From Ignavibacteriota bacterium (GTDB lineage: Bacteria > Bacteroidota > Ignavibacteria > SZUA-365), in the NCBI GenBank assembly GCA_016218045.1, contig JACRFB010000012.1, positions 1 to 64,000 on the forward strand: a stretch of DNA of 64,000 bases, given 5' to 3'. Positions 10,888 to 43,395 of the stretch are shown in pieces (positions within the stretch are counted from its first letter, which is position 1; each line of letters begins with the position of its first letter). The translations under genes and the position numbers were made by a program. Under the pieces are notes generated by a model that saw only the letters and a list, made by a program, of their open reading frames with translations, did no database searches and had not been told where the DNA came from.

Positions 10888-13800
10888 TCACTGTGCAAGC
10901 AGCATGTGCAGTGTGGAAACACCCTTAGCGTTGCGCAGGCGCGCGATGTAGAGTCCCGAGGCGCAGGCGCGGCCTGACGCGTCGGTGCCGTCCCACTGCA
11001 CGATGTGTGTGCCTTCACTCACCGTGCCCGAAAGCAGCACCGCGATTTCGCGTCCCATCACGTCGTACACACTCAGGCGTACATCACCCGCGCTCGGCGC
11101 TGTGAATCGTATCGACGTGGACGGGTTGAACGGATTCGGGTAATTGCCTTCAAGGATCCATGTGCCGCGTGCCGGAGCCGTTTCACCGATGGCGCTGGGC
11201 CGTAATCCGCGGCGGTACCAGATCGGATAGATGCCCGAGGGAACAAAACCCTGCGGCGCGCCCAGCGCCGTGACACGGTCGGCCGCCACATCCACGGTGT
11301 AAATGGAATCACGTCCGCTGCTCGACAAGGCGCTCGACGAGAACGACACGACGCGGTCGTCGCCGCGATACGACGGCGTGCCGGGTTCTGTGTGTGCGAC
11401 GCGCGCGATGAGGCTTACCTCGTCCGTGAGCAAGTTTGCTGCTGCGATAGCACCTTCGTTGCTGCCGTTGTCTTTCGCGTCGAAGACGATCACGTTCTGC
11501 GAATTGCGCGCAAACGTGGCGTTGCCGAGATCGATGCCCGTCTCCTGCGGGAACAGGCGATAAATAGTACCGGATCCGAAACTCGTGTTTTTGGCATCCC
11601 ACACCGACAGGAGGTTGATCTCCCAGAAACCGATGGGCGCCGTGCCGACGGTGATTTCGTTGTACACGTCGTACAGCAGCGAGGTGTTGTCGGGACTGAA
11701 GTCCATCGCGTCGGGATATTTCGCCACGTCGGGGAGTCCCTCGCCCGAGTATGTCGGGCAGTACAGAGTGAACTCGCGCGCGTCGGGTGTGGCCGCGCCC
11801 AGATCGATCACGTAGATGCTCGGTTCCTGCAGCAGCGAGGTGAGCGCAAGCAGGCGCTTGTCGCGGCTCAGCGCCAGCGAACCCCAGATGCCGCTGCTGT
11901 CGATGATCTGTTCGTTCGGGGCAGCCGGATCCAGACTCACCGCGCGGATGTTGCCCTCGAAGTCGATAAACACCGCGACGCTGCCGTCGTCGGCGACGGA
12001 CGGCCGCGAGAAAACGGGCGTGCTCGAGATGGATGTAAAATCGCTCGGTCCCGCGGGCGGCTGTACCGTCCACAGGTACACAGGATCACTGACGTCGGTG
12101 CTGACAAAGAGCAGACGATCCGCGCCGTTGACGGGCGGAAGATCCGCCGGCGGACGTGTGCCGCTGCCGTCCACGATGCCGACCTGATCACACGCAGCCG
12201 CACACGCGGCGCTTTCGGGAGATCCCGTGCCGTGCAACTCGTCGGCGCTGCGTATGAGGGCCAGGCGGAAATCGACAAAACGCGACTGCATGGTGAGTTT
12301 GGTCGTGAGGGCGCGGTACAGGATTTTTTCTGCCTTCTCCCTGCCTATCGATTGCGATAGCAGATATGCCGCGTGATTCGGGATGCCGCTGTTCACATGT
12401 ACGCCGCCGTTGTCCTCGGCGTCCGACAGTACCACAAATTCGTTCATGTGTTTGGGCTGCCAGGCGGGCGAGCCGCTCGAGGCGCCGTTGTGCGGGTCGG
12501 CCATGTCGCGCAGCGCGCCCGAAGGGTATGGCGTGCCGGTGCGGACCACGTCCTCGCCGATGCGCCAGTCGTCGCGGTCCACCATCGCGGCGAACATGTC
12601 GCTGAAGGCCTCGTTGAGGGCGCCGGACTGGCCGAGATACATCAAGCCCGCGCTGTGTTCCGTGACGCCGTGTGTCATTTCATGCGCCGCAACATCGAGT
12701 GCTCCGGCGAGCGGCTTGAAGGTGGCGCCGCCGTTGCCGTACACCATCACGCGGCCGTTCCAGTAGGCATTTTCCATCGGCTGCCCGTTGTCGGTGGCAT
12801 TGACGATCGAGATGATCGTGCTGCCGCGGCCGTCGATGCCGTTGCGGTTGTGCGTGGCGCGGAAGTACTCGTAGGTGTCGCCCGCGAAGGCGTGCGCCGA
12901 CACGGCCGAGGCATCGGTCCATGTGTTCGAGGCCGAGGTCACGTGACGGACGGAGGCGAGGTCGGTGTTCTGCGCGTCGAGTGTGAGAATGGCGCCCGCG
13001 GGTCCGTCGGGTATTGTGCTCTCACCCGCGCGGTACATGGGCCGCGAGGCGTCCAGCATGTAGTAGTTGCCCTGATGCAGATACACATCGATGTCGCGGG
13101 TGCGTCCGAGCAGATCCGTGGCGCTGCCCTTGGCCGGACCATCGGCGCACGCGGCATTGTAGCGCAGCAGCACGCGGCCGTCGAGCGCGTCGACAAACAC
13201 GATCCAGCGCGACGAGGCGGTGGGCGTGAATTCCACCTCGTAGGCGAGCGCCGCGGCATCGGAGGCCTCGCGCGCAAAACAGACGAGCCGTGCCTCGTGT
13301 TCAAAGCCGGGTGTGTTGGCCCCCGGCAGCGAGTTGTGCGCGGTCACCATCGCGTTGTACCGTGTAAGCGCGGGTGTGACGGAACACACGGGCGTGGGCC
13401 GCGTGCGTCCCATATACAGCACCAGGTCGCCGCGCGCGCTGAACTGCAGCACGGCCTCGGAACCCCACACGGCGACGCCGTTGTGATACTGCGCAAAACG
13501 CGCGTGGGACGCGCCCGATTCATCACGCGTGAGCGAGAGAAGACGGAATTCGTCGCTCGCGGCGTTCAACCGGAACAGTCCGGCAAAATCACTGAAGAAC
13601 TGCGCGGCAACCGCCTCCACATCCGCCTCGGCGGCCTGCGAGTATCCACGCGCAAGCACGGGGGCCGCGATGCTGATGGGCAGCGCGCCGCGCTCGTCCC
13701 ACGACACGCGCAGTCCGGCCACACGTCGCGCGATGCCGTCGTAGGCGAGGATCTGCGCGGGCGTGAGTCCGCGCGCCGCGCGCAATTCCGGACGCCGCGA

Positions 13801-14019
13801 GAGAACCTCCGACGATCGTGTCCATTCGCGCAGCGAGGCGCCCACCTTCTCCGCGGCGGCCGCATCGGCGGTGCCGTGAAAGGCCGCGCGGCGCTCCATG
13901 ATGCGGCGTTTAAATGCCGCCGGCTGCTGGGCGGGCACGGAGGCGGCAAACGTCGCGAGCAGTGCCAGGATCAGGCCCGGCCGCGCGGATGCGAGGAAAC
14001 GAAGGATGTGTGTGTACAT
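10888..14019 (-). CDS. Secreted M4 (thermolysin-family) metalloprotease with propeller and T9SS sorting domain
   Basis: A 1043-residue secreted zinc protease. Order: signal peptide (to about residue 30, ASVPAQ); FTP/PepSY-type propeptide (about 100-250; ARFAQYHNGVAVWGSEAVLQF); M4 catalytic domain with the zinc-binding HEMTH at 446-450, the third ligand Glu in GALNEAFSD about 20 residues on, and the C-terminal M4 His in the VHVNSGIPNHAAYL region; then a TolB/WD40-like propeller (about 640-930; PSVADDGSVAVFIDFEGNI, DAMDFSPDNTSLLYDV); and a T9SS type-A sorting domain starting GNYPNPFNPSTSIRF. Typical M4 enzymes lack the propeller, which may recognise substrate or the cell surface. It is probably autoprocessed and exported by T9SS. 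It sits between two lipoprotein genes in the leftward operon. Confidence 0.95.
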   Translation of the reverse strand: MYTHILRFLASARPGLILALLATFAASVPAQQPAAFKRRIMERRAAFHGTADAAAAEKVGASLREWTRSSEVLSRRPELRAARGLTPAQILAYDGIARRVAGLRVSWDERGALPISIAAPVLARGYSQAAEADVEAVAAQFFSDFAGLFRLNAASDEFRLLSLTRDESGASHARFAQYHNGVAVWGSEAVLQFSARGDLVLYMGRTRPTPVCSVTPALTRYNAMVTAHNSLPGANTPGFEHEARLVCFAREASDAAALAYEVEFTPTASSRWIVFVDALDGRVLLRYNAACADGPAKGSATDLLGRTRDIDVYLHQGNYYMLDASRPMYRAGESTIPDGPAGAILTLDAQNTDLASVRHVTSASNTWTDASAVSAHAFAGDTYEYFRATHNRNGIDGRGSTIISIVNATDNGQPMENAYWNGRVMVYGNGGATFKPLAGALDVAAHEMTHGVTEHSAGLMYLGQSGALNEAFSDMFAAMVDRDDWRIGEDVVRTGTPYPSGALRDMADPHNGASSGSPAWQPKHMNEFVVLSDAEDNGGVHVNSGIPNHAAYLLSQSIGREKAEKILYRALTTKLTMQSRFVDFRLALIRSADELHGTGSPESAACAAACDQVGIVDGSGTRPPADLPPVNGADRLLFVSTDVSDPVYLWTVQPPAGPSDFTSISSTPVFSRPSVADDGSVAVFIDFEGNIRAVSLDPAAPNEQIIDSSGIWGSLALSRDKRLLALTSLLQEPSIYVIDLGAATPDAREFTLYCPTYSGEGLPDVAKYPDAMDFSPDNTSLLYDVYNEITVGTAPIGFWEINLLSVWDAKNTSFGSGTIYRLFPQETGIDLGNATFARNSQNVIVFDAKDNGSNEGAIAAANLLTDEVSLIARVAHTEPGTPSYRGDDRVVSFSSSALSSSGRDSIYTVDVAADRVTALGAPQGFVPSGIYPIWYRRGLRPSAIGETAPARGTWILEGNYPNPFNPSTSIRFTAPSAGDVRLSVYDVMGREIAVLLSGTVSEGTHIVQWDGTDASGRACASGLYIARLRNAKGVSTLHMLLAQ

Positions 14020-14078
14020 GTCGGTGTCTCTCCTCGGCGGACGAATCCGTCCGGCACGTCTATCGGATAAAACGGTCT

Positions 14079-14555
14079 TTAATTCTGTTGTGTGTGCGCG
14101 GCGAGTGTGGAACGGAGCCGTTCCACCAGCGGCCGCAGCGGCGCGGGGACGGTGTCGGGATCACTTTCCGTTCCCGGCCAGGACCAGGTGTACACCCGCT
14201 CGCCGCGTTCGATGGTCAGCGTGGTGGTCATGTTTCCCGTGTCCGCAAGACGCAGATCAAATATGCCCGCGCTGTCGATCAGCGACGTCAGTGCGCGCAG
14301 CTCGTCGGTGTGCAGGCGTCCGGCCGGACGCACGGCGTCCTTCTTGCCGTACAGGCCTTCCCACCGCGTCACCACACCCCGCGCGTCGATAACCGCGCCC
14401 GTGTGCATGCCCGAAAATCCTCCGCCTGTCGAGAGGCCGACGACGTACGGGCTCGCGTAGTCATCCGCTCCGCGGGTGCCGTGGCATGCACACGCGGCCA
14501 TCACACAGGCGACGGCCGCGGTGCATATGCCCAGGACAAAACGACGATACGGCAT
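14079..14555 (-). CDS. Small hypothetical lipoprotein
   Basis: A 158-residue protein with signal peptide MPYRRFVLGICTAAVACVMAAC and lipobox VMAAC. The mature part contains GLSTGGGFSGMHTGAVIDARGVVTRW, then a Leu-rich segment (DELRALTSLIDSAGIFDL) and TLTIERGERVYTWSWPG. This resembles small lipoproteins in which a protonated/oxidised side chain tests a response value, but I do not recognise a named family. It is nine bases from the downstream stop of the OB-fold protein gene and 59 bases before the protease gene, so it is part of the same operon. A membrane-anchored accessory role is an inference from location only. Confidence 0.75.
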   Translation of the reverse strand: MPYRRFVLGICTAAVACVMAACACHGTRGADDYASPYVVGLSTGGGFSGMHTGAVIDARGVVTRWEGLYGKKDAVRPAGRLHTDELRALTSLIDSAGIFDLRLADTGNMTTTLTIERGERVYTWSWPGTESDPDTVPAPLRPLVERLRSTLAAHTQQN

Positions 14556-14563
14556 GTCGCCGG

Positions 14564-16699
14564 TCAGCGGATGATCAGCGATCCGCGCAGCAGCGCGGAA
14601 CCGGCGAGAAGCTGGTAGTGATAGACGCCCGGCGCGAGCGACGCGGTGTTGAAGGGCACGCTGTACTGGCCCGGACGCGTCTCACCCTCGAACAGTGTGA
14701 CGACGCGGCGGCCGAGCGCGTCGAACAGCGCAAGGGAGGCGCTGCCCGTTTCCGCTGTCTCGAAACGCAGCGTCGCGACTGATCCGGCGGCGACGGGATT
14801 CGGATAGCTCGCGTGTAATGTGGCGCGTGCGGGGCTGGCCGGTGTGTACGAGATGCCGGTCACGCCGTCGAAATCGCCCGCGTTGCGCGGCTCGAGTTTG
14901 TAGTTGCCGAAGTTGAAGAACATGATGCCCGTCAGCGAGGCAAGGCGTGTGCCTTCCTTCAACAGTGTGAGCGTGGTCTTGCTGGAATCGGTAGTGTACA
15001 CTTTTTTCCACGAACCGAAATCGTCCACACGCATGTCGCCGCTGCCGTCGGTCACGAGGAATTCGCCGAAGTTGCTCCCGGCGGGTGCGTCGGCATTACG
15101 TGCGGTGACGGTGAGCGTCGCGAAGCGCACAAGCATGCCTTCCCACTGTTCGGCGTCCGGCGTGCCGTCGGTCACCACGCCGCTGCGGAAGGCGCCGGTC
15201 GTGAGATTCACGGGTGCGGGCACCGCCGCGGTGCCGTGTTTGGTCACAACTGTCGCGTCGATGATCGCGGTGTTGCCGTTGGTGGCGCTGCTGTAGCCCT
15301 CGGCCACCTTGCCGCTGACGGTCACGTCCTCGCCGAGCGCGAGTGCGCGGATGGCCGCGTCGCCGCGCACCATGATGCCCGACCAGGGGGCGGTGTCGTC
15401 CATGATGTACACGAGACTGAGCGATGTCGAGTCGGCTGCCGACACGACGGTGCCGCGCACGCTCACGGTGGCGTCGAGACAGCCCGGCGCGCCGTCGCTG
15501 TACGGCGTGTACTGGATGTCGCGGATGCGGGTCGCGCCGTTGCGCACGATGAAGAACGGACGCGCCTTCGCGCCGGCTGCGGGATACAGCGCCGATTCAT
15601 TCTTGTCGTCGGTGGCTTTGAGGGTGTACCAGATTACCGCACCGTCGGCCTGCGCCGGAATCTTTCCCGTCGCGAGTTTGCTGGTGGCGTCCCATGTCAT
15701 CGTTACTTTGCCCAGACTCGTCGCGCCCTGGCCGTACTCGAGTTCGGCCGTGGCGATGCTGCCGCCCGGACGCGCGGTCTCGACGGTTGCCGTGACGGTC
15801 ACTTCCTGCGAGGAGGTCGGGATGCCGATGTCGCGCTTCAGACCACGGATGGTCGGCGGGAAACTGCCGAGCACGATGTCGCCGGGATAGATCGGGGCGA
15901 TGACGATGCCCTGGCCGGAGCTGGTGATGACGCCGCGGATGTAGGTGAGCTGTGTGCCCGCGGGAGGCGGTGCCCAGTTCGGATCGAATCCCTGTGAACC
16001 ACCGCGGAAATACACGCTCTGATCGTACACGCCGATCGAGTTGCCCTTGCCGTCGGTGACTGTCCACGTGTAGCGTCCGGTCGAGGTGTTTTTTGTCACC
16101 GTTCCGACGCTCGCGTCCTTGATCACCACATACGCGCCTTCCCACTGCTGCGATGCGGGAATGAAGGCCTTCGGGTCGCCGTTGACGAGGTCCGTGATCT
16201 TGATCTCTGTCGGTTCCGGACGGCGCGGTTTGGTGTCGAGCACCTCCACCTGGCGGTCGGCATTCCACGAGGCGATCTTGCCGATCTCGAACTGTGTGGT
16301 CGAGAAATACTGTGTCACAACACCCGTGATGCGCACCACGAAGCCCGTGTCGACGGCCGTGAGCAGCGTGCTTGCGGAGGCGACGGAGTCGGACGCGCGC
16401 ACGTTGAGGCCGCTCCATGCGCCGCCGTTCTCATCGACGATATACATCGTGTTGGCGTTGCCGAGAGCAAAAAGCAGCGGACCGCCCGGGCTGATGCGCG
16501 GCGCGGCGATCACGATGCCGGTCACGGTGACGGTGTCGCCGACGTACAACGAATTCTGTTTGCCCGCATTGAGCGAATCGTCGGGAACGTACTGCAACTG
16601 TTTGATGGTGAGTGTGTCGGAACGGAGCTGCGCAGAGGTGGTGAACGTACCTGCGAAGCACAGGACCGCGGCGAGAAGAAGACCGGCGCGAAGTTTCAT
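14564..16699 (-). CDS. Secreted OB-fold/nucleotide-interaction-like protein with T9SS sorting domain
   Basis: A 711-residue secreted protein: signal peptide MKLRAGLLLAAVLCFAGTFTTSA, then two copies of a domain resembling the YhcR-type OB fold. The first runs about residues 28-270 (TLTIKQLQYVPDDSL ... VGDTVTVTGIVIA ... WSGLNVRA) and the second about 390-600 (TRIRDIQYTPYSDG ... VSVRGTVVSA ... WSGIMVRG). Between them lies an Ig-like segment (EVTVTATVETARPGGSIATA). The C-terminus is a type-A sorting domain (ASYPNPVAAGSVATLRFE ... YHYQLLAG). No nuclease catalytic domain is attached, unlike in YhcR, so binding rather than cleavage is the safer reading. It is 28 bases downstream of the first operon gene. 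Confidence 0.8.
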   Translation of the reverse strand: MKLRAGLLLAAVLCFAGTFTTSAQLRSDTLTIKQLQYVPDDSLNAGKQNSLYVGDTVTVTGIVIAAPRISPGGPLLFALGNANTMYIVDENGGAWSGLNVRASDSVASASTLLTAVDTGFVVRITGVVTQYFSTTQFEIGKIASWNADRQVEVLDTKPRRPEPTEIKITDLVNGDPKAFIPASQQWEGAYVVIKDASVGTVTKNTSTGRYTWTVTDGKGNSIGVYDQSVYFRGGSQGFDPNWAPPPAGTQLTYIRGVITSSGQGIVIAPIYPGDIVLGSFPPTIRGLKRDIGIPTSSQEVTVTATVETARPGGSIATAELEYGQGATSLGKVTMTWDATSKLATGKIPAQADGAVIWYTLKATDDKNESALYPAAGAKARPFFIVRNGATRIRDIQYTPYSDGAPGCLDATVSVRGTVVSAADSTSLSLVYIMDDTAPWSGIMVRGDAAIRALALGEDVTVSGKVAEGYSSATNGNTAIIDATVVTKHGTAAVPAPVNLTTGAFRSGVVTDGTPDAEQWEGMLVRFATLTVTARNADAPAGSNFGEFLVTDGSGDMRVDDFGSWKKVYTTDSSKTTLTLLKEGTRLASLTGIMFFNFGNYKLEPRNAGDFDGVTGISYTPASPARATLHASYPNPVAAGSVATLRFETAETGSASLALFDALGRRVVTLFEGETRPGQYSVPFNTASLAPGVYHYQLLAGSALLRGSLIIR

Positions 16700-16727: not shown

Positions 16728-18866
16728 TTATTTGATGATTGCGAATTTTCCGCGGGTGATGTCGCCCGTGTCGAGATTTTTGACGGTGAAGAGGTAGAGG
16801 CCCGTTGCGACGGCCTGATCGTTGTCGGTCACAAGATCCCACGCGTGTTCGCCGCCGGCCAGAATCTGTGTGCCGTCGGCGTAGCGCGAGAACCACTGCA
16901 CGTCCGATCCGGTATACGTTGCCGCATCGTGCGACAGCGTGCGCACCAGATCGCCCGCGAGCGTGTACACGCGTATCTCGGCGCGCGCGGGGAGATTGGC
17001 AAAGTAGATTTTCCGCTGCCGCTCGCCGCCGCCGTCCCACACGGCATTGGCGTAATAGGGATTCGGATACACGCGCGGTTCGCGGCCTGCGGCGTCGGCC
17101 GGCGTGGTGCCGGGGAAAATGCGCCGCGCGTTCTGCAGGCGGCTGCTCTCGAGACTCTCGACGTTGTTTGCGGGATCGCCGCCGTCGAAGGCCGTGACCG
17201 AATAGAGGTACTGCCAGCCGTTGAGTTGATTGGGAATGTGGAATCGATACCAGTACTCGCGCGGATCACCGTCGAAACGTATCGGCGCGGGCAGACGTAC
17301 GGCGCCGAAACCGGTGTTGTAGAAGACGGTGTTGCCGGGCGTGTCGAATTCTCCGATCAGGACCAGCTTATCGCTTAATGCTCCTCCCGCGGCAAGATCC
17401 GCTCCGGCGTTCGAGCGGTAGATGCGGTAGCCCTCGAAATCACGTTTCCCCGAAATCGGGTCGACCGAGGACTCGGCGTCGCGGTCCCAATACACGGTGA
17501 CGCTGCGGTCGCCGGGAACAACACGCACGTGCGGGGCTGTCGGCGGGGCAGGGAGCACAAACCGTGTCAGGCGGCCGTCGCCGTCGAGGTCCTCGCCCGG
17601 ATCAAGCGTGTTGTTCCGGTTCTTGTCCTCGCCGTCGTAGGCCTGCTGCGCAAAGGTCCATGCACGCATGAGATTCACCCGCGCGTTGTCGGTGTCGAGC
17701 GCGGTTGCCTCGGCGCCGTATTTCTTCGCGCAGATCACCGCGTACACAATCTCGGTCGATTCGCCCGGAGCCAGCGAACGGAAGGGTCCGGTGGAGAGAA
17801 GCACCGAGCGGTTCGAGGGCGACTTGAGTCCGGGCAATTCCGACGCCGGCAGCGGCACACTCAGTTTTTCATAGCGCTCACGATCGGTCGCGGGCGAGAA
17901 GTAGAGCGGATCGGTGGTGTTGCGGAACTGCCAGGTGTTGAAGATGCCGTTGCTGCCCGGCGAGCCGCCGGGGAGGGTTTGCAGCGGCGTGCTGCCCAGC
18001 AGCGACAGGCCGATATACGAATCGGTGAAACCAGGATCGCCGTCGACGTCGAACTCGTACGCGAGGCGCGCCGAATCGATGTAGCCGTTGCCGCCGCGCG
18101 CAAAGTACGCGCTGCCGCGCGGAGGACTGATGTTGGTGTTCCGCACGACCATGTCGAGCCAGATGCCCGTGTACACGCTGTCAAGCTGTGTGGTCCCGGT
18201 GTTGCGCACGATGTAGCGCAGAAGGACAAAATTCTCCGCGAATGAGAAATTCCACGCATAGGCCTCGAGCCGCACTTCCACACCGAGAGGATTGTCGTGA
18301 TCGGGTATGGGGGTGCTTGTGCCGGGCACCACGGTATTCGAATCGGTGAAGACCGCCACAAGATCCTGATGGCTCACAGCCGTCGTGCTGTAATAGCGTG
18401 AATCGGGCAGGGTGGATCGTTCCTCCATCCTTGCCCCGGGTGCGTTGGTGAATTCGAATCCCGCGGCAATGTCGCGCACCGAACTCACGTCCACCGCGCC
18501 CGTGCTGACGAAGGGTCCGCGTCCCGCCTTGAAGGCGCCGATCCAGAAACCGCCCTCGAAAATGTGCTCGATACCCGATCCGGCCGGGTATTCGCAGTTC
18601 GGCTGCTGCGGCCAGCGGTTAAAACCGTGTCCCAGTGTGCCGAAGTTCGACAGAGTCAGGCGCAGATTGCCCACGTTGGTGAAATGGGATTCGTCGTCGT
18701 CGAGGGCCTTGCGCAGGCCCGAGGGACGTCCCTGTTGTGCGTGCAACGTCACCGCTGCAAGCAGCAGCAGGACGGGCAAAAGGGCGGCGGCACGGCGCCG
18801 GAGGGGTGTCGTTGGTTCTGGAATCAAGGAACTGATATCGGAGAGAAAAACGGAGGTTGCATTCAC
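16728..18866 (-). CDS. Large secreted protein with fibronectin-type and T9SS-type C-terminal domains
   Basis: A 712-residue protein starting at GTG (no ATG is available in frame before the hydrophobic segment). The signal sequence lies at about residues 25-44 (RRAAALLPVLLLLAAVTLHAQ), so the N-region is long and the true start is uncertain. The N-terminal 400 residues (HFTNVGNLRLTLSNFGTLG, GGFWIGAFKAGRGPFVS, LRYIVRNTG) match a family of uncharacterised secreted proteins in Ignavibacteria-like genomes. A fibronectin-type module follows (FEGYRIYRSNAG, WQYLYSVTAFD), then a sorting-like domain (VYPNPYYANAVWDGGG ... GLYLFTVKNLDTG). A calcium-loop-like run DKNRNNTLDPGEDLDGDGRL is near 430. The protein cut by the right window edge (62392 onward) has the same architecture. 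This is the promoter-proximal gene of the 15-kb leftward operon. Confidence 0.8.
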   Translation of the reverse strand: MNATSVFLSDISSLIPEPTTPLRRRAAALLPVLLLLAAVTLHAQQGRPSGLRKALDDDESHFTNVGNLRLTLSNFGTLGHGFNRWPQQPNCEYPAGSGIEHIFEGGFWIGAFKAGRGPFVSTGAVDVSSVRDIAAGFEFTNAPGARMEERSTLPDSRYYSTTAVSHQDLVAVFTDSNTVVPGTSTPIPDHDNPLGVEVRLEAYAWNFSFAENFVLLRYIVRNTGTTQLDSVYTGIWLDMVVRNTNISPPRGSAYFARGGNGYIDSARLAYEFDVDGDPGFTDSYIGLSLLGSTPLQTLPGGSPGSNGIFNTWQFRNTTDPLYFSPATDRERYEKLSVPLPASELPGLKSPSNRSVLLSTGPFRSLAPGESTEIVYAVICAKKYGAEATALDTDNARVNLMRAWTFAQQAYDGEDKNRNNTLDPGEDLDGDGRLTRFVLPAPPTAPHVRVVPGDRSVTVYWDRDAESSVDPISGKRDFEGYRIYRSNAGADLAAGGALSDKLVLIGEFDTPGNTVFYNTGFGAVRLPAPIRFDGDPREYWYRFHIPNQLNGWQYLYSVTAFDGGDPANNVESLESSRLQNARRIFPGTTPADAAGREPRVYPNPYYANAVWDGGGERQRKIYFANLPARAEIRVYTLAGDLVRTLSHDAATYTGSDVQWFSRYADGTQILAGGEHAWDLVTDNDQAVATGLYLFTVKNLDTGDITRGKFAIIK

Positions 18867-21619: not shown

Positions 21620-24600
21620 ATGGATATCAAGGCGGGATCATTGTTCGCGAATCGTTTCCGGCTCCTCGAGAGGATCCCGGGAGGGAATCGCACGCAAGTC
21701 TGGCGCGTGGAGGACGCGAAAAAGAGCAATGCGGTGTTTGCGCTGAAGCTCTTCGAATCAGACAAGGAACTCGATCCGGTCATCGTGCAGCTTCTGACAA
21801 ACGAATTTCTCTCGATGTCGCTGAAGCACACGAATCTGCTCATGCCCGCGAGTTTTGCCGCCTCCGGCAGTGTTCCGTATCTGGTTCTTCCCTATATGGA
21901 AAAAGGTTCGCTGCGAGGCCAGCTCCAGCGGTCGCCCGCGGGCGGCCGCGTGGGTGAAAAACAGATCGTACCCTTCCTTGCACAGATCGCCTCGGGACTC
22001 GCAGTCCTGCACAAAAACAACTTCGTGCATCAGGATATTGCGCCCGAAAATATTTTTCTCGGAGAGGGGGGCGTGTTCCTTCTCGGCGATTTTGGCATCA
22101 GCCGTATCCTGCACAACACGCTGTCGCATGAAGTGGGTCCGAACAAGATATTCCACATCGCATACGCCTCACCCGAGAGATTCATCTCGCGTTCCGCGAA
22201 TCCGCCCGACGACATTTTCTCCGTCGGTGTGGTGCTGGTGGAGATGGCGATGGGCAAGGTGCCTTTCGACGGACAGGGCGGCAAACCGATTCTCGAGGAG
22301 CAGGAGCCGCGGAAGTACCTCGATCTGAGCTTTTCGGATGAGTTTATCGAGATTGTGCAGTCGTGTCTGCAACGTAATCCCGACAAGCGTCCCACCGCGG
22401 CGGAACTCGAGAAGTGGGCGTTGTCGTTCACGCCACTGAGTCCGGAGGAACTACGTGCCGCGCGCGCGGAGAAGGCGCGGAAGGAGAAGGAGGCCGAGGA
22501 AGCCAAGGCCCGTCGCGCGGAGGAAATCAAGAAACAGACCGAATTGCAGCGCAAGTCGAAGGAGGATGTCGACAGGCGCATACGCGAGGCGGGCGAGAAA
22601 AAGGCCGCGAAGTCAAAGCCGCAGAAGACGCTGGCGGACTACGTTCCAGGGGCCGCGGCGGACGTCGCCGCCGAGAAGGAACAGCGCGCGCGCGAGGAAG
22701 CCGCCCGGAGCGAGCAGGAACAGAAGGCGCGCGAGGAGGCCGAGCGCAAGCTCCGCGAAGCGACTGAACGCGCGATACGCGAGGAGACCGAGAAGAAGGT
22801 CCGCCAGGAAACGGAACGCGCCCTGCGCGAGGAGGCCGAACGCCGCGCGCGCGAGGAGAAGGAACGGCGGGCACGCGAGGAGGCCGAACGCAAGGCACGG
22901 GAGGAATCGGAACGGCAGCAGCGCCGCGCGTTTGAAGAGCAGTTGAAGAAGGAACTCGACTCGAAGCTGCAGGAGGAACTCTCGCGCATTCGCAGCGCCG
23001 CCGAAACGCAACTGCAGGAAGCGGAGCGTCTTTCGCAGGAACTCGCGGAACAGCGCGCACGCGCCGAGGCGGAACGCAAACACCTCGCGGAAGAACAGCA
23101 GCGCCTGCGCGACGAGGCCGAACGCAAAGCCCGCGAAGAAGCGGAACGACAGGCCCGCGAAGAAGCGGAACGACAGGCCCGCGAAGAAGCGGAACGTCAC
23201 GCACGTGAAGAAGCGGAACGCCAGGCCCGCGAAGAAGCGGAACGACGGGCGCGTGAAGAAGCGGAACAACGGGCGCGCGAAGAAGCGGAACGACAGGCGC
23301 GCGAAGAGGGTGAACGACAAGCGCGCGAAGAGGCCGAACGACGGGCGCGCGAAGATGCGGAACGCCAGGCGCGCGAAGATGCGGAACGCCAGGCGCGCGA
23401 AGAAGCGGAACGTCAAGCGCGTGAAGAAGCGGAACGTCAAGCGCGTGAAGAAGCGGAACGCCAGGCGCGCGAAGAAGCGGATCGCAAGGCGCGTGAAGAA
23501 GCGGAACGACTAGCGCGCGAAGAAGCGGAACGCCAGGCGCGCGAAGAAGCGGAACGACAGGCGCGCGAAGAGGCCGAACGACAAGCGCGCGAAGAAGCGG
23601 AACGACAAGCGCGCGAAGACGCCGAGCGTCAAGAGCGGGAACGTGCTGAACGGCGGGCACGTGAGGACGCCGAGCGTGCGGAGCGTGAGGCCGCGGAGAC
23701 GCGTGTGCAGGAAGAAGCGGCACGCACGGCAAGGGAAGCGGAAGAACGCAACGAGGCCCAGTCGGCCATGCGCCGGGCGCGCGAGGAACTGGCGCGCCTG
23801 GAAAAGGCGGAGGCGGAACGACGCGCACGGGAGGCCGAGTCCATGCACGTTCGCGAGGAAGCCGACAGGCGCCTGCGTGAAGAGACGGAACGTCGTATTC
23901 GTGAAGAGATGGAGAAGAAACTCCGCGAGGAAGCGGAGGCGCGCGCGCGGGTGGAAATGGAAAAACGTCTGCACGAGGAGACGGAACGCCTGCTCCGCGA
24001 CGAGGCCGAACGCAAAGCGCGTGAAGAGGCCGAACGCAAAGCGCGTGAAGAAGCCGAGCGCAAGGCGCGCGAAGAAACCGAACGCGCGGCACGCGAAGAA
24101 ACCGAACGCAAGGCGCGTGAAGAAGCCGAACGCAAGGCGCATGAAGAAGCCGAGCGCAAGGCGCGCGAAGAGGCCGAGCGGTGGGCGCGTGAGGAAGCCG
24201 AGAAACGTGTGCGCGAAGAGGCCGAGAAGAAGGCAAGAGAGGAAGCCGAGCGGCTCATGCGCGAGGAAATTGAACGCCGCGCGCGTGAGGAGGCCGAGAG
24301 AATTGCGCGGGAGGAGACGGAACGCCGGCTGCGCGCGGAATTGGAAAAACGTGACGCGGAGGAGCGTGAACGGCGCGTCCGCGAGGAGGCCGAAAGGCGG
24401 CAACGCGAGGACGAGGAACGCCGCGCGGGCGAGGAGCAGGCGCGACGTCTCCGCGAGGAGATCGAGCAATCGATCCGGTCGGAACTGGAACAGCGCTTCT
24501 CGGCGGAACTGAGCCGCGTGCGCAACGAGACCGAGGAGCGGGCCCTGCGCGAGGCACAGCAGCGCGAGAAGGAACATGCGGAACTCGTCGCGCGTGAAGC

Positions 24601-26611
24601 GGCGGAGAAGGAACGTCTTGCGCAGGAGGCCCGGCGGGCCAAGGCCGAGGCGGAACGCCTGGCGCGCGAAACCGAACGTCTTGCGCGGGAGGAGACCGAA
24701 CGTGCGCGGCGGGAGGAGGAATTGCGGGCGGCTATCGCGGAGACCGAACAGCGCATTCGCGAGGAACTCGAGGCCCGGCTGCGCGACGAATCCCTGCGCC
24801 GCGCGAAACTCGAGGAGGTCCGCTCGGCCTCGCCTCTCGCAACAGGCGCGCTGCCCGAGGATCTGGTCGCCTCCATGCAGCGCGACACGGCGCGGCTGCG
24901 CGAGGAATTGGAGGCGCAGCTCCGCGGCGAGGTGCAGCGCGAACTCGATGTGAAACTCGCCACACTCGCGCCGGTCGAGGTGCCCGTCCATACAAACGGA
25001 CATGGTCACGAACCTCCGGGTCCGCCGCCACCGTCAGGGACGGATGCCGGCATGCAGGCGCTGCTCGACCAGATACAGCGGTCCACCGCGATTGTACCCG
25101 GACTGCCCGCGACCACGGCGCCCTTTGCTCCGGCCGAACTGCACGCGATGCAGGCGGAAGAAGCGGCTGCGAAGGTCGAAGAGCCGCGACGCAGGAAGGC
25201 GCGCAGCGAGGCGCCGAACGACGAACAGCGACGCGAGCGCCAGACGCTGCTTGCCGACGACACGCCGCTTCCGCCCAGCCCCTTCGACTCGCGGAACTGG
25301 CAGCGCGGTATCAAGATCGCCATCACGCTGGTGACCGTGGCCGTCATCGGATTTTTCTTGTACGGCGAACGCGATGTGTTGATGGATTCGAGACAGGTCG
25401 TGCGCCTCGGCGCCACCGCCGATCAGCGCGACCTCGCGGAAGCCATCGCCCGCGCGTGGCTGACGGAACGCGGAGTGCCTGCCCCGCGGTCGGCGACAAA
25501 CGACGACGGCTCGCTGCATCTGGAAGGCGCGGGCGCGGCCGACTCGGTGTTTGCCGTCGATGTGCTCGCGCTGGCGGACGATGCATTTTATCAGACAAAC
25601 GGATCCGATATCGACTTCCTGTTTGCGGGCGGACTCTCGTCCGGCGACGCGCGGCTGGTCGCGGCCACGCCGGAACTGTTCGACTACCAGACCGTACTCG
25701 GACTCGATGCCCTTGCCGTTGTGGTGCATCCCGCACAGAAGATCGACGCCATCGACGCCGGACAATTAACCGCCATCGCAAAGGGCGATGTGCGGGACTG
25801 GTCAGATCTCCGCGCGAAGCGCGGCCCTGTGACACTCTATCTGCCGGAGCGCGGCACATTCACCGGCCAGGCCATCGCGGCGCTGTTCCCCGAGTGGGGT
25901 GATGCCGCGGGCACACGTGTGAATGGCGACGCCGCGGTGCTCGATGCGGTGCTTGCGCAGCCGGGAGCCATCGGTATCGTCCGTATCAAGGATGCCGCGC
26001 GCGCCAGGATCCTCGCCGTCGGCGGCTTTGGTTTGGAGCCGGTCGCTCCCGATCCGGCACGTGTGCGGCTCGGACTCTATCCGCTCGCCGCCTCGCTCAG
26101 CGCGTACAGGCATACGGGTGCGCGTTCCGAGACCGCCGATCGGTTCCAGCGTTTCCTCGCGGGTGACGCGGTGCAGGAACTGGCCGCGGCGAGAGGTTTC
26201 ATCGATCTGCGTCTGCGCGAAGTGCCGGACAACGGCCGCGCCGTGAAGGGCGCCTTCGCGGATGCGACACGTGGCGCGCGGCGGCTTGGAGCCGATCTGC
26301 GCCTGCGTCCCGGCGCGTCGGATTTCGACGCGCTGGCGCGCGGCGACATCGAGCGCCTTGCGGCCTACGTCCGGTCGCATCCCGGTGAATCGATTCTGCT
26401 CTTCGGATTCTCCGACGCGATGAGCGCGGCGGAGACGGAAAAGCTCGCCTCGGAGACGCTTGCCCGGAAAGCCGCGGGCCGTCTGAAGGAACTCGGCGTG
26501 GACGCCGCAGCCGCCGAGGGATACGGAACGTTGCGCGCTGTGGCGCGGGACGACGCGGCGGGCGGCCGCGACCGCAACAGACGGGTCGAGATCTGGATCA
26601 CGCGCCGCTGA
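21620..26611 (+). CDS. Transmembrane Ser/Thr kinase fused to PstS-like and OmpA-like domains through a very long charged helix
   Basis: A single uninterrupted 1663-residue frame. Residues 10-275: kinase domain (FALKLF Lys; FVHQDIAPENIF catalytic loop, non-RD; LGDFGIS; YASPERF). Residues of about 281-1113: Arg/Glu/Ala-rich helix, including about 22 copies of an octapeptide REEAERQA. Residues of about 1115-1230: linker with a Pro/Gly stretch (HEPPGPPPP). Residues of about 1232-1251: one membrane helix (IKIAITLVTVAVIGFFLYG). Residues of about 1258-1555: PstS/PBP-like-2 domain (LDALAVVVHPAQKIDAID, AIAKGDVRDWSDL, LPERGTFTGQAI). Residues of about 1560-1663: OmpA C-terminal domain (ILLFGFSD ... LARKAAGRL ... 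GYGTLRAVA ... RDRNRRVEIWI), with the conserved Asp and Arg used to bind peptidoglycan diaminopimelate in OmpA. Topology: kinase in the cytoplasm, sensor domains in the periplasm. PBP-OmpA fusions are known to me; with a kinase and an 830-residue helix I know no precedent. Confidence 0.92.
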   Translation: MDIKAGSLFANRFRLLERIPGGNRTQVWRVEDAKKSNAVFALKLFESDKELDPVIVQLLTNEFLSMSLKHTNLLMPASFAASGSVPYLVLPYMEKGSLRGQLQRSPAGGRVGEKQIVPFLAQIASGLAVLHKNNFVHQDIAPENIFLGEGGVFLLGDFGISRILHNTLSHEVGPNKIFHIAYASPERFISRSANPPDDIFSVGVVLVEMAMGKVPFDGQGGKPILEEQEPRKYLDLSFSDEFIEIVQSCLQRNPDKRPTAAELEKWALSFTPLSPEELRAARAEKARKEKEAEEAKARRAEEIKKQTELQRKSKEDVDRRIREAGEKKAAKSKPQKTLADYVPGAAADVAAEKEQRAREEAARSEQEQKAREEAERKLREATERAIREETEKKVRQETERALREEAERRAREEKERRAREEAERKAREESERQQRRAFEEQLKKELDSKLQEELSRIRSAAETQLQEAERLSQELAEQRARAEAERKHLAEEQQRLRDEAERKAREEAERQAREEAERQAREEAERHAREEAERQAREEAERRAREEAEQRAREEAERQAREEGERQAREEAERRAREDAERQAREDAERQAREEAERQAREEAERQAREEAERQAREEADRKAREEAERLAREEAERQAREEAERQAREEAERQAREEAERQAREDAERQERERAERRAREDAERAEREAAETRVQEEAARTAREAEERNEAQSAMRRAREELARLEKAEAERRAREAESMHVREEADRRLREETERRIREEMEKKLREEAEARARVEMEKRLHEETERLLRDEAERKAREEAERKAREEAERKAREETERAAREETERKAREEAERKAHEEAERKAREEAERWAREEAEKRVREEAEKKAREEAERLMREEIERRAREEAERIAREETERRLRAELEKRDAEERERRVREEAERRQREDEERRAGEEQARRLREEIEQSIRSELEQRFSAELSRVRNETEERALREAQQREKEHAELVAREAAEKERLAQEARRAKAEAERLARETERLAREETERARREEELRAAIAETEQRIREELEARLRDESLRRAKLEEVRSASPLATGALPEDLVASMQRDTARLREELEAQLRGEVQRELDVKLATLAPVEVPVHTNGHGHEPPGPPPPSGTDAGMQALLDQIQRSTAIVPGLPATTAPFAPAELHAMQAEEAAAKVEEPRRRKARSEAPNDEQRRERQTLLADDTPLPPSPFDSRNWQRGIKIAITLVTVAVIGFFLYGERDVLMDSRQVVRLGATADQRDLAEAIARAWLTERGVPAPRSATNDDGSLHLEGAGAADSVFAVDVLALADDAFYQTNGSDIDFLFAGGLSSGDARLVAATPELFDYQTVLGLDALAVVVHPAQKIDAIDAGQLTAIAKGDVRDWSDLRAKRGPVTLYLPERGTFTGQAIAALFPEWGDAAGTRVNGDAAVLDAVLAQPGAIGIVRIKDAARARILAVGGFGLEPVAPDPARVRLGLYPLAASLSAYRHTGARSETADRFQRFLAGDAVQELAAARGFIDLRLREVPDNGRAVKGAFADATRGARRLGADLRLRPGASDFDALARGDIERLAAYVRSHPGESILLFGFSDAMSAAETEKLASETLARKAAGRLKELGVDAAAAEGYGTLRAVARDDAAGGRDRNRRVEIWITRR
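23112..23636 (+). repeat. 24-bp in-frame coding repeats (octapeptide REEAERQA)
   Basis: About 22 consecutive 24-bp units of the type GCGCGCGAAGAAGCGGAACG plus four bases. They use nearly identical codons throughout (GAA-GAA-GCG-GAA), whereas the surrounding helix uses mixed GAG/GAA and GCC/GCG. That uniformity suggests recent expansion by slippage or unequal crossover. A second, shorter tract of similar units lies at about 24000-24200. Lengths are multiples of three, so the frame is kept. Confidence 0.9.
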
Positions 26612-26707: not shown

Positions 26708-28048
26708 TTACACGATGCCCTGCGCCATCATGGCGTCGGCAACCTTCACGAAGCCCGCGATGTTCGCGCCGTTCACGTAGTTGCCCGGCGTGCCGTATCG
26801 CGCTGCTGCGTCGATGCAGGCCTTGTGGATGTTGATCATGATCTGGTGCAGGTGACGGTCCACTTCTTCCGCCGACCAGGTCATGCGGATGGAGTTCTGC
26901 GTCATCTCGAGACCCGAGGTCGCAACACCGCCCGCGTTTGCCGCCTTCGCCGGACCGTACAGAATGCCGGCATCCAGGAACACCTTCGCGCCGTCGGGTG
27001 TGGTGGGCATGTTCGCGCCTTCACACACGCAGTAGCAGCCGTTTGCAAGAAGCGTCCTGGCATCGTTCTCATCGAGTTCGTTCTGCGTGGCGCAGGGGAG
27101 TGCGATGTCGCATTTCACTTCCCACGGACGCTTGCCGGCGACAAATTCCACACCGAAACGCTCGGCGTACGGCTGCACGATGTCCTGATTTGACGCGCGC
27201 AGTTCGAGCATGTAGTCGATCTTCTCGCCCTTCACTCCGTCGGGATCGAAGATGTAGCCGTCGGGACCGGAGAGGGTCACGACCTTCGCGCCGAGTTCGC
27301 CGGCCTTGATCGCCGCGCCCCAGGCCACGTTGCCGAAACCGGAGACCGCGACCGTTTTGCCTTCGAACGACTTGCCCTGCGACTTCAGCATTTCGTCGGC
27401 GAAGTACACAACGCCGAAACCGGTCGCTTCCGGACGGATGAGGCTGCCGCCCCACGTGATGCCCTTGCCGGTCAACACGCCTTCGTACACGTTGCGGATG
27501 CGCTTGTACTGCCCGAACATGAAGCCGATTTCCTGGCCGCCCACACCGATGTCGCCCGCGGGCACGTCGGTGTTTGCGCCGATGTGACGGTAGAGCTCGG
27601 TCATGAAGCTCTGACAGAAACGCATGATTTCATTTTTCGATTTGAACTTCGGATCAAAATCCGAACCGCCCTTGCCGCCGCCCATAGGAAGCGTCGTGAG
27701 ACTGTTCTTGAAGATCTGCTCGAAGCCGAGGAATTTCAGAATGCTGAGCGTAACACTCGGGTGGAAACGCAGACCGCCTTTGTACGGACCGATGGCGCTG
27801 TTGAATTCGATGCGGTAGCCGCGATTGACGCGTACTTCGCCGTTGTCGGCCACCCAGGGCACTCGAAACATGATCTGACGCTCGGGCTCGACCATTCGAT
27901 CGATGATCTTCGCTTTGCGGTACTCGGGGTGCTGGTCCAATACGGGGACCAAGGATTCGACGACTTCCTGAACTGCCTGGTGGAATTCCGCTTCGTTCGG
28001 GTTTTTCGCTCTGACTTCGGCCATGAAGTCATTGACAAAGGTCGACAT
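26708..28048 (-). CDS. gdhA: NADP-type glutamate dehydrogenase
   Basis: 446 residues, the normal length for hexameric NADP(H)-dependent GdhA. It interconverts 2-oxoglutarate plus ammonium and glutamate in the cytoplasm. Visible features: substrate-binding GPYKGGLRFHPSV (about 87-99), catalytic Lys126 in PMGGGKGGSDFDPK, the PAGDIGVGGQEIGFM segment, and the dinucleotide-binding VSGFGNVAWGAA (about 236-247). The C-terminal NAGGVATSGLEMTQN is typical of the family. The ATG at 28048 lies 65 bases downstream of a good Bacteroidota-type promoter. It is monocistronic and ends at a strong hairpin shared with the convergent kinase gene. NADP preference is inferred from overall similarity to the GdhA class. 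Confidence 0.97.
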   Translation of the reverse strand: MSTFVNDFMAEVRAKNPNEAEFHQAVQEVVESLVPVLDQHPEYRKAKIIDRMVEPERQIMFRVPWVADNGEVRVNRGYRIEFNSAIGPYKGGLRFHPSVTLSILKFLGFEQIFKNSLTTLPMGGGKGGSDFDPKFKSKNEIMRFCQSFMTELYRHIGANTDVPAGDIGVGGQEIGFMFGQYKRIRNVYEGVLTGKGITWGGSLIRPEATGFGVVYFADEMLKSQGKSFEGKTVAVSGFGNVAWGAAIKAGELGAKVVTLSGPDGYIFDPDGVKGEKIDYMLELRASNQDIVQPYAERFGVEFVAGKRPWEVKCDIALPCATQNELDENDARTLLANGCYCVCEGANMPTTPDGAKVFLDAGILYGPAKAANAGGVATSGLEMTQNSIRMTWSAEEVDRHLHQIMINIHKACIDAAARYGTPGNYVNGANIAGFVKVADAMMAQGIV

Positions 28049-40609: not shown

Positions 40610-40825
40610 ATGGCACAGAGCAGATTCCATAGGACATTCGGTTACTCCCTCGCGGTGATCACCGCGGCCACGGCCGTGGTCATCATCACGGGTTTCCTTC
40701 TGCCGGACGGAGTACCCTCGCAATTCCGCATCATGTTCGGCGTGGTGTTGTTCCTGCTCGCCGGCTACCGTGCCGTCATCACCTATTTTCAATCCCGCCA
40801 GACGGACCGAGGCAGCCATGAATAA
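40610..40825 (+). CDS. Small two-helix membrane protein of the ExbBD-TonB/PstS cluster
   Basis: 71 residues with two membrane helices (about 12-31, SLAVITAATAVVIITGFLLP, and 40-58, RIMFGVVLFLLAGYRAVITYF). It ends in a polar tail QSRQTDRGSHE. I know small membrane proteins at this position of the conserved Bacteroidota cluster, without a defined function. Its stop overlaps the start of the PstS-like gene (ATGAATAA), which supports it as a real gene. Confidence 0.75.
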   Translation: MAQSRFHRTFGYSLAVITAATAVVIITGFLLPDGVPSQFRIMFGVVLFLLAGYRAVITYFQSRQTDRGSHE

Positions 40826-41738
40826 TCCGCGCATTCTTCCGGCGCTCGCAGTGCTGGCCGTGCTCGTATTCGCCGCCGGCTGCGAGGAGCGGAAAAAGGA
40901 CGAGACTCCGACGAGCGGCAAGCTGCAGATACTTGCCTGCGAGTCGCAGTCCGAAATCATGCGCGAGCAGGTGGATCAGTTCTCGCGCCTGTATCCTCAG
41001 GCCGCGCTGCGTATGCAGACGACATCGACACGCGACGCCATCGTGCAACTGCTGAACGACAGCGTGCGGCTCATCTGCGTCGACCGCGCCCTGAACGACG
41101 AGGAACGGGCCGTGGTCGAGCGCGCCGACATCGACATCGAACAGGTGCATGTGGCGCAGGACGCCCTGGCGTTTGTCGTGCATCGCGACAATCCGGCCAC
41201 GCGTATTTCACACGCGTCGATACGCAACATCCTCGCGGGCAATGCGCGCGACTGGAAGGAGATTCCCGACTCGGAAGGCAGGGGGCGCATCCTTCTCGCG
41301 ACGACGGGCCGCAACTCTGGCACCTTCGAGCTGCTGACCCAGCGGTTTTTCCCGGGCGATTCGCTGCCCAAACTTTCCCATATCGGCAAGACCCAGCGCG
41401 ACGTGCTCGACTTCGTGCTGCGCAATCCGCGCGCGCTGGGAGTGGTGTCGGTTGCCACCGTGCGCGACACGTCGCTGCCGTTCCGCGTGCTCCAGGTCGA
41501 GCATGTCGATTCGGCCACGAGCACCATCTCGTACGTGCGCCTGCATCAGGCCAACATTTACCAGGGAACCTATCCCTATCAATATCCGGTGTACGTGTAT
41601 TATTCCTCGCGGAAGGTCGGGCTCCCGACCGGGTTCAGCACCTTCATCGCGAGTACGCCGGGACAGAAGATATTCTTGAACGCGGGTCTCGTTCCCATGA
41701 GGCAACCCGTTCGATTGGTTCAACTACGTGAGGAGTAA
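40818..41738 (+). CDS. PstS-like substrate-binding lipoprotein
   Basis: 306 residues. Lipoprotein signal MNNPRILPALAVLAVLVFAAGC (lipobox FAAGC). The mature part is a PBP-like-2/PstS-type domain: LQILACESQSEIMREQVDQF, DALAFVVHRDNPATRISHA, ILAGNARDWKEIPD, and the ligand-loop-like TTGRNSGTFELL. No PstCAB permease is present, so it is unlikely to feed a classical phosphate importer; its cluster suggests a role with the TonB machinery. The periplasmic domain of the kinase at 21.6-26.6 kb is of the same family (compare ILAGNARDWKEI with AIAKGDVRDWSDL). ATG 40818 was chosen because it opens the signal peptide; it overlaps the preceding gene by eight bases. Confidence 0.88.
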   Translation: MNNPRILPALAVLAVLVFAAGCEERKKDETPTSGKLQILACESQSEIMREQVDQFSRLYPQAALRMQTTSTRDAIVQLLNDSVRLICVDRALNDEERAVVERADIDIEQVHVAQDALAFVVHRDNPATRISHASIRNILAGNARDWKEIPDSEGRGRILLATTGRNSGTFELLTQRFFPGDSLPKLSHIGKTQRDVLDFVLRNPRALGVVSVATVRDTSLPFRVLQVEHVDSATSTISYVRLHQANIYQGTYPYQYPVYVYYSSRKVGLPTGFSTFIASTPGQKIFLNAGLVPMRQPVRLVQLREE

Positions 41739-41742
41739 CGTC

Positions 41743-43395
41743 ATGAAAGCACTTCGCTGGATCATTGCCGCCGGGCTGTTCTGCATTGCGCTGCCCGCGA
41801 TCGCGCAGGTCGATCTGCAGCGGCTTTCGGATCTCGTGCGCGTCGGTCGCGCGGCCGAAGCAGTGCCTGAACTGCAAAAATATCTCGGCACCAATCCCAA
41901 GAGTGTCGACGCCTGGTCGATTCTCGGCAGGGCATTCATACAGCTCGAGCGCCTCGACGAGGCCGCCACGGCGGGCAAACAGGCGATCGATCTCAACGAC
42001 GAACGGCCCGAGGGCTACATCGTCATGAGCCGCGTGCAGGTGCTGCAGAAGAAAAACGCCGACGCCTACGCGACACTTCGCACGGGCCTCAAGAACAAGA
42101 AAAACGATCCCTCGCTGCAGACCGAGATGGGCTTTGTGCTGCTCGCCATGGATTCGCTGAGCCAGGCCGTCGTCGTGTTCACGCGGGCGAAGGACAACGA
42201 TCCGAAAAACATGCGCGCGGTCGAGGGACTCGGCGATGCCTACATGCAGCAGAACATCCCGACCATGGCCGCGCTGCAGTACGAGCAGATCATCGCCGTC
42301 GATTCGCTCGACGCCGAGGTGAACTACAAGCTCGCCAGCTCCTACATGAAGGAGAAGCGCTACGGTGAGGCGGCGCTCGCCTACGAGCGTGTGCTCTCGC
42401 AGGACAGCACCAATCAGACGGCGATCCTCAACCTCGCGAAGCTCACCTTCGCGGCGGGTCAGTACGAGCGTTCCGCGGGGCTGTTCAAAAAGCACCTCGA
42501 GCGCAAGCCCGACGACAAGGACATGCTGCCGATCTACATGGAGGCGCTCTATCTCAGCCGGCAGTTCGAGCAGGTGCTCGCCGTCGCCGAACGCGTGCTC
42601 GCCAACGATCCCTCGAACGTGAAGGCGCTGCGTCGCGCGACGCGCGTCTCGTACGACATGAAGAATTGGGAAAAGGCCATCGGGTATCTGGGCCGTCTTG
42701 AAAAGCTCGATTCACTCACGCTCGACGAACTGTACCAGTACGGACGCTCGTACATCGAACTCAAGAACGACTCCCTCGGCGTGATGCAGCTCGAACGCAT
42801 CATCATGCGCGACCCGAAGCAGGACCGCGTGCTCGGCGAAATCGGCGCGGGCTACATGCGCATGAAGAAGTTCGACCTGGCAGCGGACGCTTTCGAAAAG
42901 CGGTACAAGCTCGATCCGAATTCCACGGGTTCGATATTGAACTACAGTCTGTCGTGCATGCAGCTCGGTCGTTGGGAACAGGCCCGTGTCGCACTGCGCC
43001 AGGTTACCGTGCAGAAGCCCGACTACCTGCCCGGTCATCTGAATCTCGGCCGCTGCCTCTCGCAGATGGACTCGCTGAAAAACGCGGTGCCCGTGTACGA
43101 GACGGTGCTGACGCTCGGCGCGGCCGATCCTGAGAAGTTCAAGATGGAACTTGCCGAGGCATACAAGATGATCGGCGTGTACAACCTCATCAACAAGGCC
43201 TACGAGAAGGCGCTGCAGAACCTGAACAAGTCGATTCAGCTCAGGGACGATGATGCGCAGACCCACTTGTGGAAGGCGCAGACACTGCAGAACCTCAACA
43301 AGAAGGATGAGGCAGTGAAGGAGTACAAGAAAGTGCTCCTGCTCGATCCCAAGAACAAGGAGGCGAGGAAGGGCCTCGAGGTTCTCGAAAAGTAA
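41743..43395 (+). CDS. Secreted tetratricopeptide-repeat protein
   Basis: 550 residues: signal peptide MKALRWIIAAGLFCIALPAIA, then about thirteen tetratricopeptide repeats with typical W/L-G-Y-A-F-A-P positions (SVDAWSILGRAFIQLERLDEAATAGKQA and so on, split across residues about 45-75). TPR solenoids scaffold protein complexes; here in the periplasm, probably with the PstS-like lipoprotein and TonB machinery. ATG 41743 is preceded by AGGAG (41731-41735) at good spacing, unlike the in-frame GTG at 41728. A terminator follows the stop. Confidence 0.92.
   Translation: MKALRWIIAAGLFCIALPAIAQVDLQRLSDLVRVGRAAEAVPELQKYLGTNPKSVDAWSILGRAFIQLERLDEAATAGKQAIDLNDERPEGYIVMSRVQVLQKKNADAYATLRTGLKNKKNDPSLQTEMGFVLLAMDSLSQAVVVFTRAKDNDPKNMRAVEGLGDAYMQQNIPTMAALQYEQIIAVDSLDAEVNYKLASSYMKEKRYGEAALAYERVLSQDSTNQTAILNLAKLTFAAGQYERSAGLFKKHLERKPDDKDMLPIYMEALYLSRQFEQVLAVAERVLANDPSNVKALRRATRVSYDMKNWEKAIGYLGRLEKLDSLTLDELYQYGRSYIELKNDSLGVMQLERIIMRDPKQDRVLGEIGAGYMRMKKFDLAADAFEKRYKLDPNSTGSILNYSLSCMQLGRWEQARVALRQVTVQKPDYLPGHLNLGRCLSQMDSLKNAVPVYETVLTLGAADPEKFKMELAEAYKMIGVYNLINKAYEKALQNLNKSIQLRDDDAQTHLWKAQTLQNLNKKDEAVKEYKKVLLLDPKNKEARKGLEVLEK

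Follow-up and report, generated by a model that had tools for sequence, protein, structure and literature searches.

Can a Ser/Thr kinase, a very long charged helix, a membrane helix, a PstS-like ligand domain and an OmpA domain really be parts of one bacterial polypeptide, and if so, what could such a protein sense and how could it signal? The question is raised by a gene on a contig of an Ignavibacteriota bacterium, of which a stretch of 64,000 nucleotides (the window) was analysed.

One gene, one polypeptide

The single open frame described in the original prediction is present exactly as described, uninterrupted over its 1663 codons (Table 1). Specifically, Pfam places Pkinase at residues 19-263, and the C-terminal piece, for which a domain search and a structure prediction had been proposed, matches PBP_like_2 above the curated cut-off (E=2.6e-8), OmpA just below the Pfam cut-off (7.7e-6, 26.6 bits against 27.2) and OmpA-type NCBIfam families down to 2.5e-10. 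Hydropathy finds a sole transmembrane helix (TM; Kyte-Doolittle 2.1). An AlphaFold2 model of residues 1226-1663 (TM-PBP-OmpA), run with a 20-row alignment, has a mean pLDDT of 89 and a pTM of 0.83, and a Foldseek search with the ectodomain model returns phosphate-binding proteins first, the best being the phosphate receptor 1twy (E=1.6e-17, TMt 0.82). The ectodomain thus has the two-lobed PBP fold, and both the OmpA fold and its NRR motif are present. These results confirm that a kinase, an E/R/A helix of about 800 residues, a flexible linker, a TM, a PstS fold and an OmpA-like domain are joined in one chain, as had been predicted, and the interpretation of the protein as a receptor-like kinase in the membrane is supported too. 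The charges flanking the TM do not clearly fix the orientation of the protein, and a C-terminus-out topology is inferred from domain logic.

Table 1. Features of the receptor-kinase-like gene and its neighbours in the window
Feature	Position	Strand	Basis or remark
Upstream flanking gene	16728..18866	-	Conserved in G003, 74% identity
Tandem paralogue: kinase and shorter charged helix	19184-21460	+	TTG start as listed, true start uncertain
Receptor-kinase-like gene, one open frame	21620-26611	+	ATG to stop, 1663 aa
Hanks-type protein kinase domain, aa 1-272	21620..22435	+	Pfam Pkinase 1.3e-34, motif alignment
Charged helix of ~800 residues, single-alpha-helix type, aa ~276-1075	22445..24844	+	i,i+4 charge-pair statistics
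Pro/Gly-rich linker, aa 1076-1228	24845..25303	+	Composition, sequence
Single transmembrane helix, aa 1230-1250	25307..25369	+	Hydropathy; helix 2-23 of AlphaFold2 model
PstS-fold PBP domain, degenerate anion pocket, aa ~1258-1528	25391..26203	+	PBP_like_2, AlphaFold2/Foldseek, motif count
OmpA-like domain, aa ~1564-1660	26309..26599	+	Pfam/NCBIfam matches, AlphaFold2, residue alignment
Downstream flanking gene, glutamate dehydrogenase family	26708..28048	-	Conserved in G003, 88% identity

A few observations fall beside this architecture. Apart from this gene, a single PBP-type gene was noticed in the window; it encodes a separate, canonical PBP_like_2 protein (40770-41738, + strand; 1.1e-33) and is directly followed by a gene for a TPR protein (41728-43395, + strand). 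Two proteins of secreted type (10888-16699, - strand), one of them a thermolysin-family peptidase, weakly match the C-terminal sorting domain of the Por secretion system. The AlphaFold2 model of 25295-26608 also matches an uncharacterized Pandoravirus protein of 723 aa (E=1.5e-10), so that this giant virus apparently encodes a protein with the PBP fold.

A gene of this kind could be an artefact of assembly, and homologues that split the frame into separate genes, or a join or frameshift at about 24.9-25.4 kb, would point that way; neither was found. The architecture search among genomes of the class recovered the same gene in G003 (same family) and helix-TM-PBP-OmpA in G013 (same order). In G003 the gene lies between the same flanking genes and is broken only at contig ends inside the repeat: contig C40 carries the upstream-neighbour homologue (74%), the kinase (54%) and then octads up to its end, and contig C55 starts in octads and continues through linker, TM, PBP and OmpA (34% to the window) to glutamate dehydrogenase (88%) and a metallo-beta-lactamase-fold gene (68%), in the order of the window. 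An exact overlap of the two contigs was sought and only a 65-bp repeat match was found, so the join relies on synteny and on both halves remaining open frames to the contig ends. In G013 an E/K-rich helix, TM, PBP and OmpA share one contig, whose start removes the N-terminus; a kinase to account for the missing part was looked for in G013 and not found, the kinases of that genome being of other types. The only complete gene of this type that was seen is the one in the window. Across the equivalent of 24.9-25.4 kb, helix-TM-PBP-OmpA is unbroken in both relatives. Moreover, the longest exact repeat within the gene (44 bp) fits inside one short read, which, along with the synteny in G003 and the contiguous relatives, leads us to reject an assembly chimera.

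A variant kinase on a very long helix

The kinase retains the Hanks hallmarks, namely the beta3 Lys (K43), the catalytic Asp (D139, in HQDIAPEN), the Asp of DFG (D157) and the Glu of APE (E186), together with N144. The HRDxK pattern is altered, with Gln in place of the HRD Arg and Ala in place of the catalytic-loop Lys; in the alignment the loop reads HQDIA in this kinase and in the paralogue, and HQDIV in G003. It is a non-RD variant with its catalytic residues kept, predicted to be active. With PASTA receptor kinases of the PknB/StkP type it shares an N-terminal Hanks kinase, a single TM and an extracytoplasmic sensor of a kind tied to the wall. Unlike them it has a PBP-OmpA ectodomain and the long helix, and no PASTA repeat was matched in the 1663 residues: the NCBIfam PASTA-kinase model NF033483 covers residues 6-337 only, at 128.9 bits against a cut-off of 450. 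A role as a phage-defence kinase was considered and rejected, since the PADLOC matches depend on the generic kinase region.

The shorter paralogue that had been predicted next door, without membrane or ligand parts, is indeed such a gene: its kinase is 51% identical and is followed by a charged helix, and TM, PBP and OmpA are absent by Pfam and hydropathy. Among 284 genomes of the class, the close kinase subfamily occurs in the window (two copies, K1 and K2) and in G003 only. In G003 the upstream gene and the kinase gene lie too close together to leave space for a further kinase, so the paralogue reflects either a duplication in the window's lineage or a loss in G003, and the kinase identities (K2-G003 54%, K1-K2 51%, K1-G003 49%) do not decide between them.

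The charged helix is built on the octad AREEAERx and is free of Pro between residues 345 and 1071. Over this stretch, R follows E at i,i+4 170 times and E follows R 176 times (z~18 against shuffles), with only 5 like-charge pairs at that spacing (z -15); a strong period of 4.0 residues follows from the octad, the 3.5-residue period is absent, and ILVMF make up 1% of the octad core. Dense opposite charges at i,i+4, few hydrophobics and no heptad are the marks of a single alpha-helix (SAH), and the helix looks like one, predicted to be monomeric; a coiled coil was rejected, as the heptad signal is absent.

This bears on the predicted rod of roughly 120 nm, of which the length stands (the contour is ~120 nm) and the transmission along it is unlikely. 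SAHs have a persistence length of the order of 15 nm, from which the root-mean-square end-to-end distance is estimated at ~55 nm, and at such a length the helix would be semi-flexible, not a rigid rod. In addition, a Pro/Gly-rich linker of ~150 residues stands between helix and TM and would decouple them, which argues against direct mechanical transmission. The helix is therefore better read as a tether or spring. It has the E/R-rich i,i+4 charge pattern of SAH domains and runs to ~800 residues, against ~200 for the longest reported in myosins (PMC5378345). Such a length, and the finding that SAHs act as constant-force springs (PMC4183817), would suit a mechanosensor in which the ectodomain grips the envelope and the kinase end grips a cytoplasmic structure, but no candidate for the cytoplasmic anchor is known and canonical wall binding is doubtful (see below), so that we consider this very improbable.

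Lost sites on conserved folds

The anion pocket of PstS and PBP_like_2 proteins is marked by the conserved motifs GSNTIG, HGSxTAF, MASR and ARDxxSGT. Seventeen other members of the family, each scored against the rest, retain 16 to 18 of 18-20 pocket columns; the window protein retains 3 of 18, G003 1 and G013 2. Outside the pocket, these three keep 48-58 of 85 conserved columns (48 in the window). The domain shares its fold with PstS phosphate-binding proteins and differs from them in having lost the pocket motifs, in being membrane-tethered and in its fusion to OmpA. In the OmpA-like domain, D1599 and L1614 correspond by alignment to D271 and R286 of A. baumannii OmpA, both of which are needed for diaminopimelate (DAP) binding (PMC6572160); the Asp is kept and the Arg has become Leu. 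With 15-17 of 18 pocket positions gone in the window's order and the Arg replaced, phosphate sensing and canonical wall binding by the window protein are unlikely. The folds of the ectodomain persist all the same, so that nature offers here an example of a protein that lost its ligand site and kept its fold.

The original prediction, that the PBP-OmpA part is a direct sensor for phosphate or some other small anion, with the receptor positioned by wall binding, draws on the PstS fold, on the pocket motifs kept by the 17 other members (kinase fusions of Verrucomicrobiota and Geobacteraceae among them) and on the PhoX and phytase-like genes that adjoin some family members. Against the pocket counts in the window, G003 and G013 and the Leu of the window's OmpA domain, it appears improbable for this protein; it may apply to other phyla. 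The same losses could mean that the ectodomain is a mere anchor, or that it is decaying. A pure localisation device, with a functional membrane-tethered kinase that the long helix spaces from the envelope or for which it scaffolds partners, would agree with the degenerate sites, the flexible linker and a fast-diverging ectodomain (34% identity to G003, where the kinase reaches 54% and the flanking genes 68-88%). The non-pocket columns kept in three diverged relatives and the joining of related ectodomains to other signalling domains speak against it, and we regard it as rather unlikely.

These related ectodomains were collected by a profile scan of GTDB genomes, plus phylum-wide scans around two matches; a scan of genome contigs with the window protein alone as query found nothing, and a plasmid search found no member. 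The TM-PBP-OmpA module is present in Pseudomonadota, Verrucomicrobiota, Thermodesulfobacteriota, Myxococcota, Ignavibacteriota and elsewhere, and within the class a PBP-OmpA match at 1e-11 occurs in 4 of 391 sampled genomes (the window's, G003, G013 and G233). That PBP-OmpA fusions are known, as the original prediction states, is borne out by proteins of Pseudomonas, Psychromonas, Colwellia and others, which have the same TM/signal-PBP-OmpA module as the window protein but begin with a signal peptide or with a short N-terminus that is mostly unassigned; their anion and DAP-contact residues are retained. The N-terminus is a signal peptide only in Pseudomonas and others; elsewhere it consists of (i) short or unassigned cytoplasmic segments, (ii) Zn-ribbon-like CxxC pairs (L042, L075, L088, L164-L166, L170-L172), (iii) REC-DUF4388 (L173; DUF4388 above its cut-off, REC slightly below its own) or (iv) a probable TIR domain (L084), an assignment based on a sub-threshold Pfam match (TIR_2, E=7e-4, below the curated cut-off), as the single-sequence structure model is uninformative (pLDDT 42).

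Kinases occur there as well. Kinase-TM-PBP-OmpA proteins in the same domain order are found in Verrucomicrobiota and Geobacteraceae/Desulfuromonadaceae (L079, L087, L150, L162; L077, L086, L169), so the combination is not unique to this gene and exists in at least two other phyla, there without the SAH rod. These fusions differ from the window protein in a short linker, a kinase only ~20-25% identical and pocket motifs that are kept in 5/5 tested. Three of them (L077, L086, L169) have HRG instead of HRD, and L077 and L086 also GFG for DFG, and are likely pseudokinase receptors. When kinase presence is mapped onto a tree built from 39 ectodomains, three changes are needed, and a single kinase clade is rejected (AU p=0.022); this suggests at least two origins of kinase fusions, tentatively so given the long branches of the window's order. 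The idea that signalling forms always lack the OmpA Arg (at first 9/9 versus 2/74) was discarded, because L169 (kinase) and L173 (REC) keep the Arg; independent pairs are too few for a statistical test.

Several members have neighbours or additions of their own. The Zn-ribbon-like gene L075:2336-5335 adjoins a Tubulin_2 (FtsZ-like) gene, and OmpA-like proteins and kinases near FtsZ-like genes, with an FtsZl1-OmpA association, have been described (PMC2875224), which fits L075, not the window gene. In an alphaproteobacterial PBP-OmpA protein (L113:4516-7020) the PBP is preceded by a second region that resembles SBP_bac_3, and in Plasticicumulans a 1599-aa WD40-repeat protein (L072:274-5070) is encoded directly upstream of a TM-PBP-OmpA gene.

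A proposed tethered receptor in a family with exchangeable outputs

Receptors typically combine one ectodomain with various output domains, and the exchanged N-termini of the module elsewhere therefore support a receptor reading of the window protein, which falls within the family, here defined by TM-PBP-OmpA together with a cytoplasmic N-terminus that can be exchanged. We give about an even chance to a single-pass inner-membrane receptor-like kinase that is SAH-tethered and switched by clustering or recruitment of a re-purposed periplasmic PBP-OmpA module. The module would read, or anchor to, some envelope component; having lost the ancestral anion pocket and wall-binding clamp in the window's lineage, it would probably recognise another partner, e.g. 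an envelope protein or glycan. In the cytoplasm, the kinase would sit at the end of the SAH, beyond the flexible linker, and would thus search a large volume or pull on a soft spring. Switching would most likely occur through clustering or recruitment of the periplasmic module and not by rigid transmission along a rod, and the tandem paralogue may be a soluble companion.

The separate parts of an SAH-tethered kinase are already known. What seems new is an ectodomain of PBP-OmpA type whose outputs can be exchanged, as well as the form of it that bears a kinase on an SAH tether; no published description of the combination or of a modular receptor family was found in the open-licence literature, a partially covered source. 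TM-PBP-OmpA is apparently an undescribed modular receptor family in which a sensor is paired with varied inner signalling parts. With somewhat less than even confidence, we propose that it forms the ectodomain of widespread envelope receptors whose outputs (kinase, pseudokinase, TIR, REC-DUF4388, Zn ribbon) are freely exchanged, and that in the window's lineage it was re-purposed to a new ligand, its kinase carried on the longest SAH tether in a receptor known to us. To our knowledge, the signal has been established for few bacterial Ser/Thr kinases. The PBP-OmpA ectodomain, which recurs under different outputs and in most members has its anion-pocket motifs intact, offers a directly testable class of sensors across several phyla, to which the window's version contributes a receptor tether of extreme length and a ligand site lost while its fold was retained.
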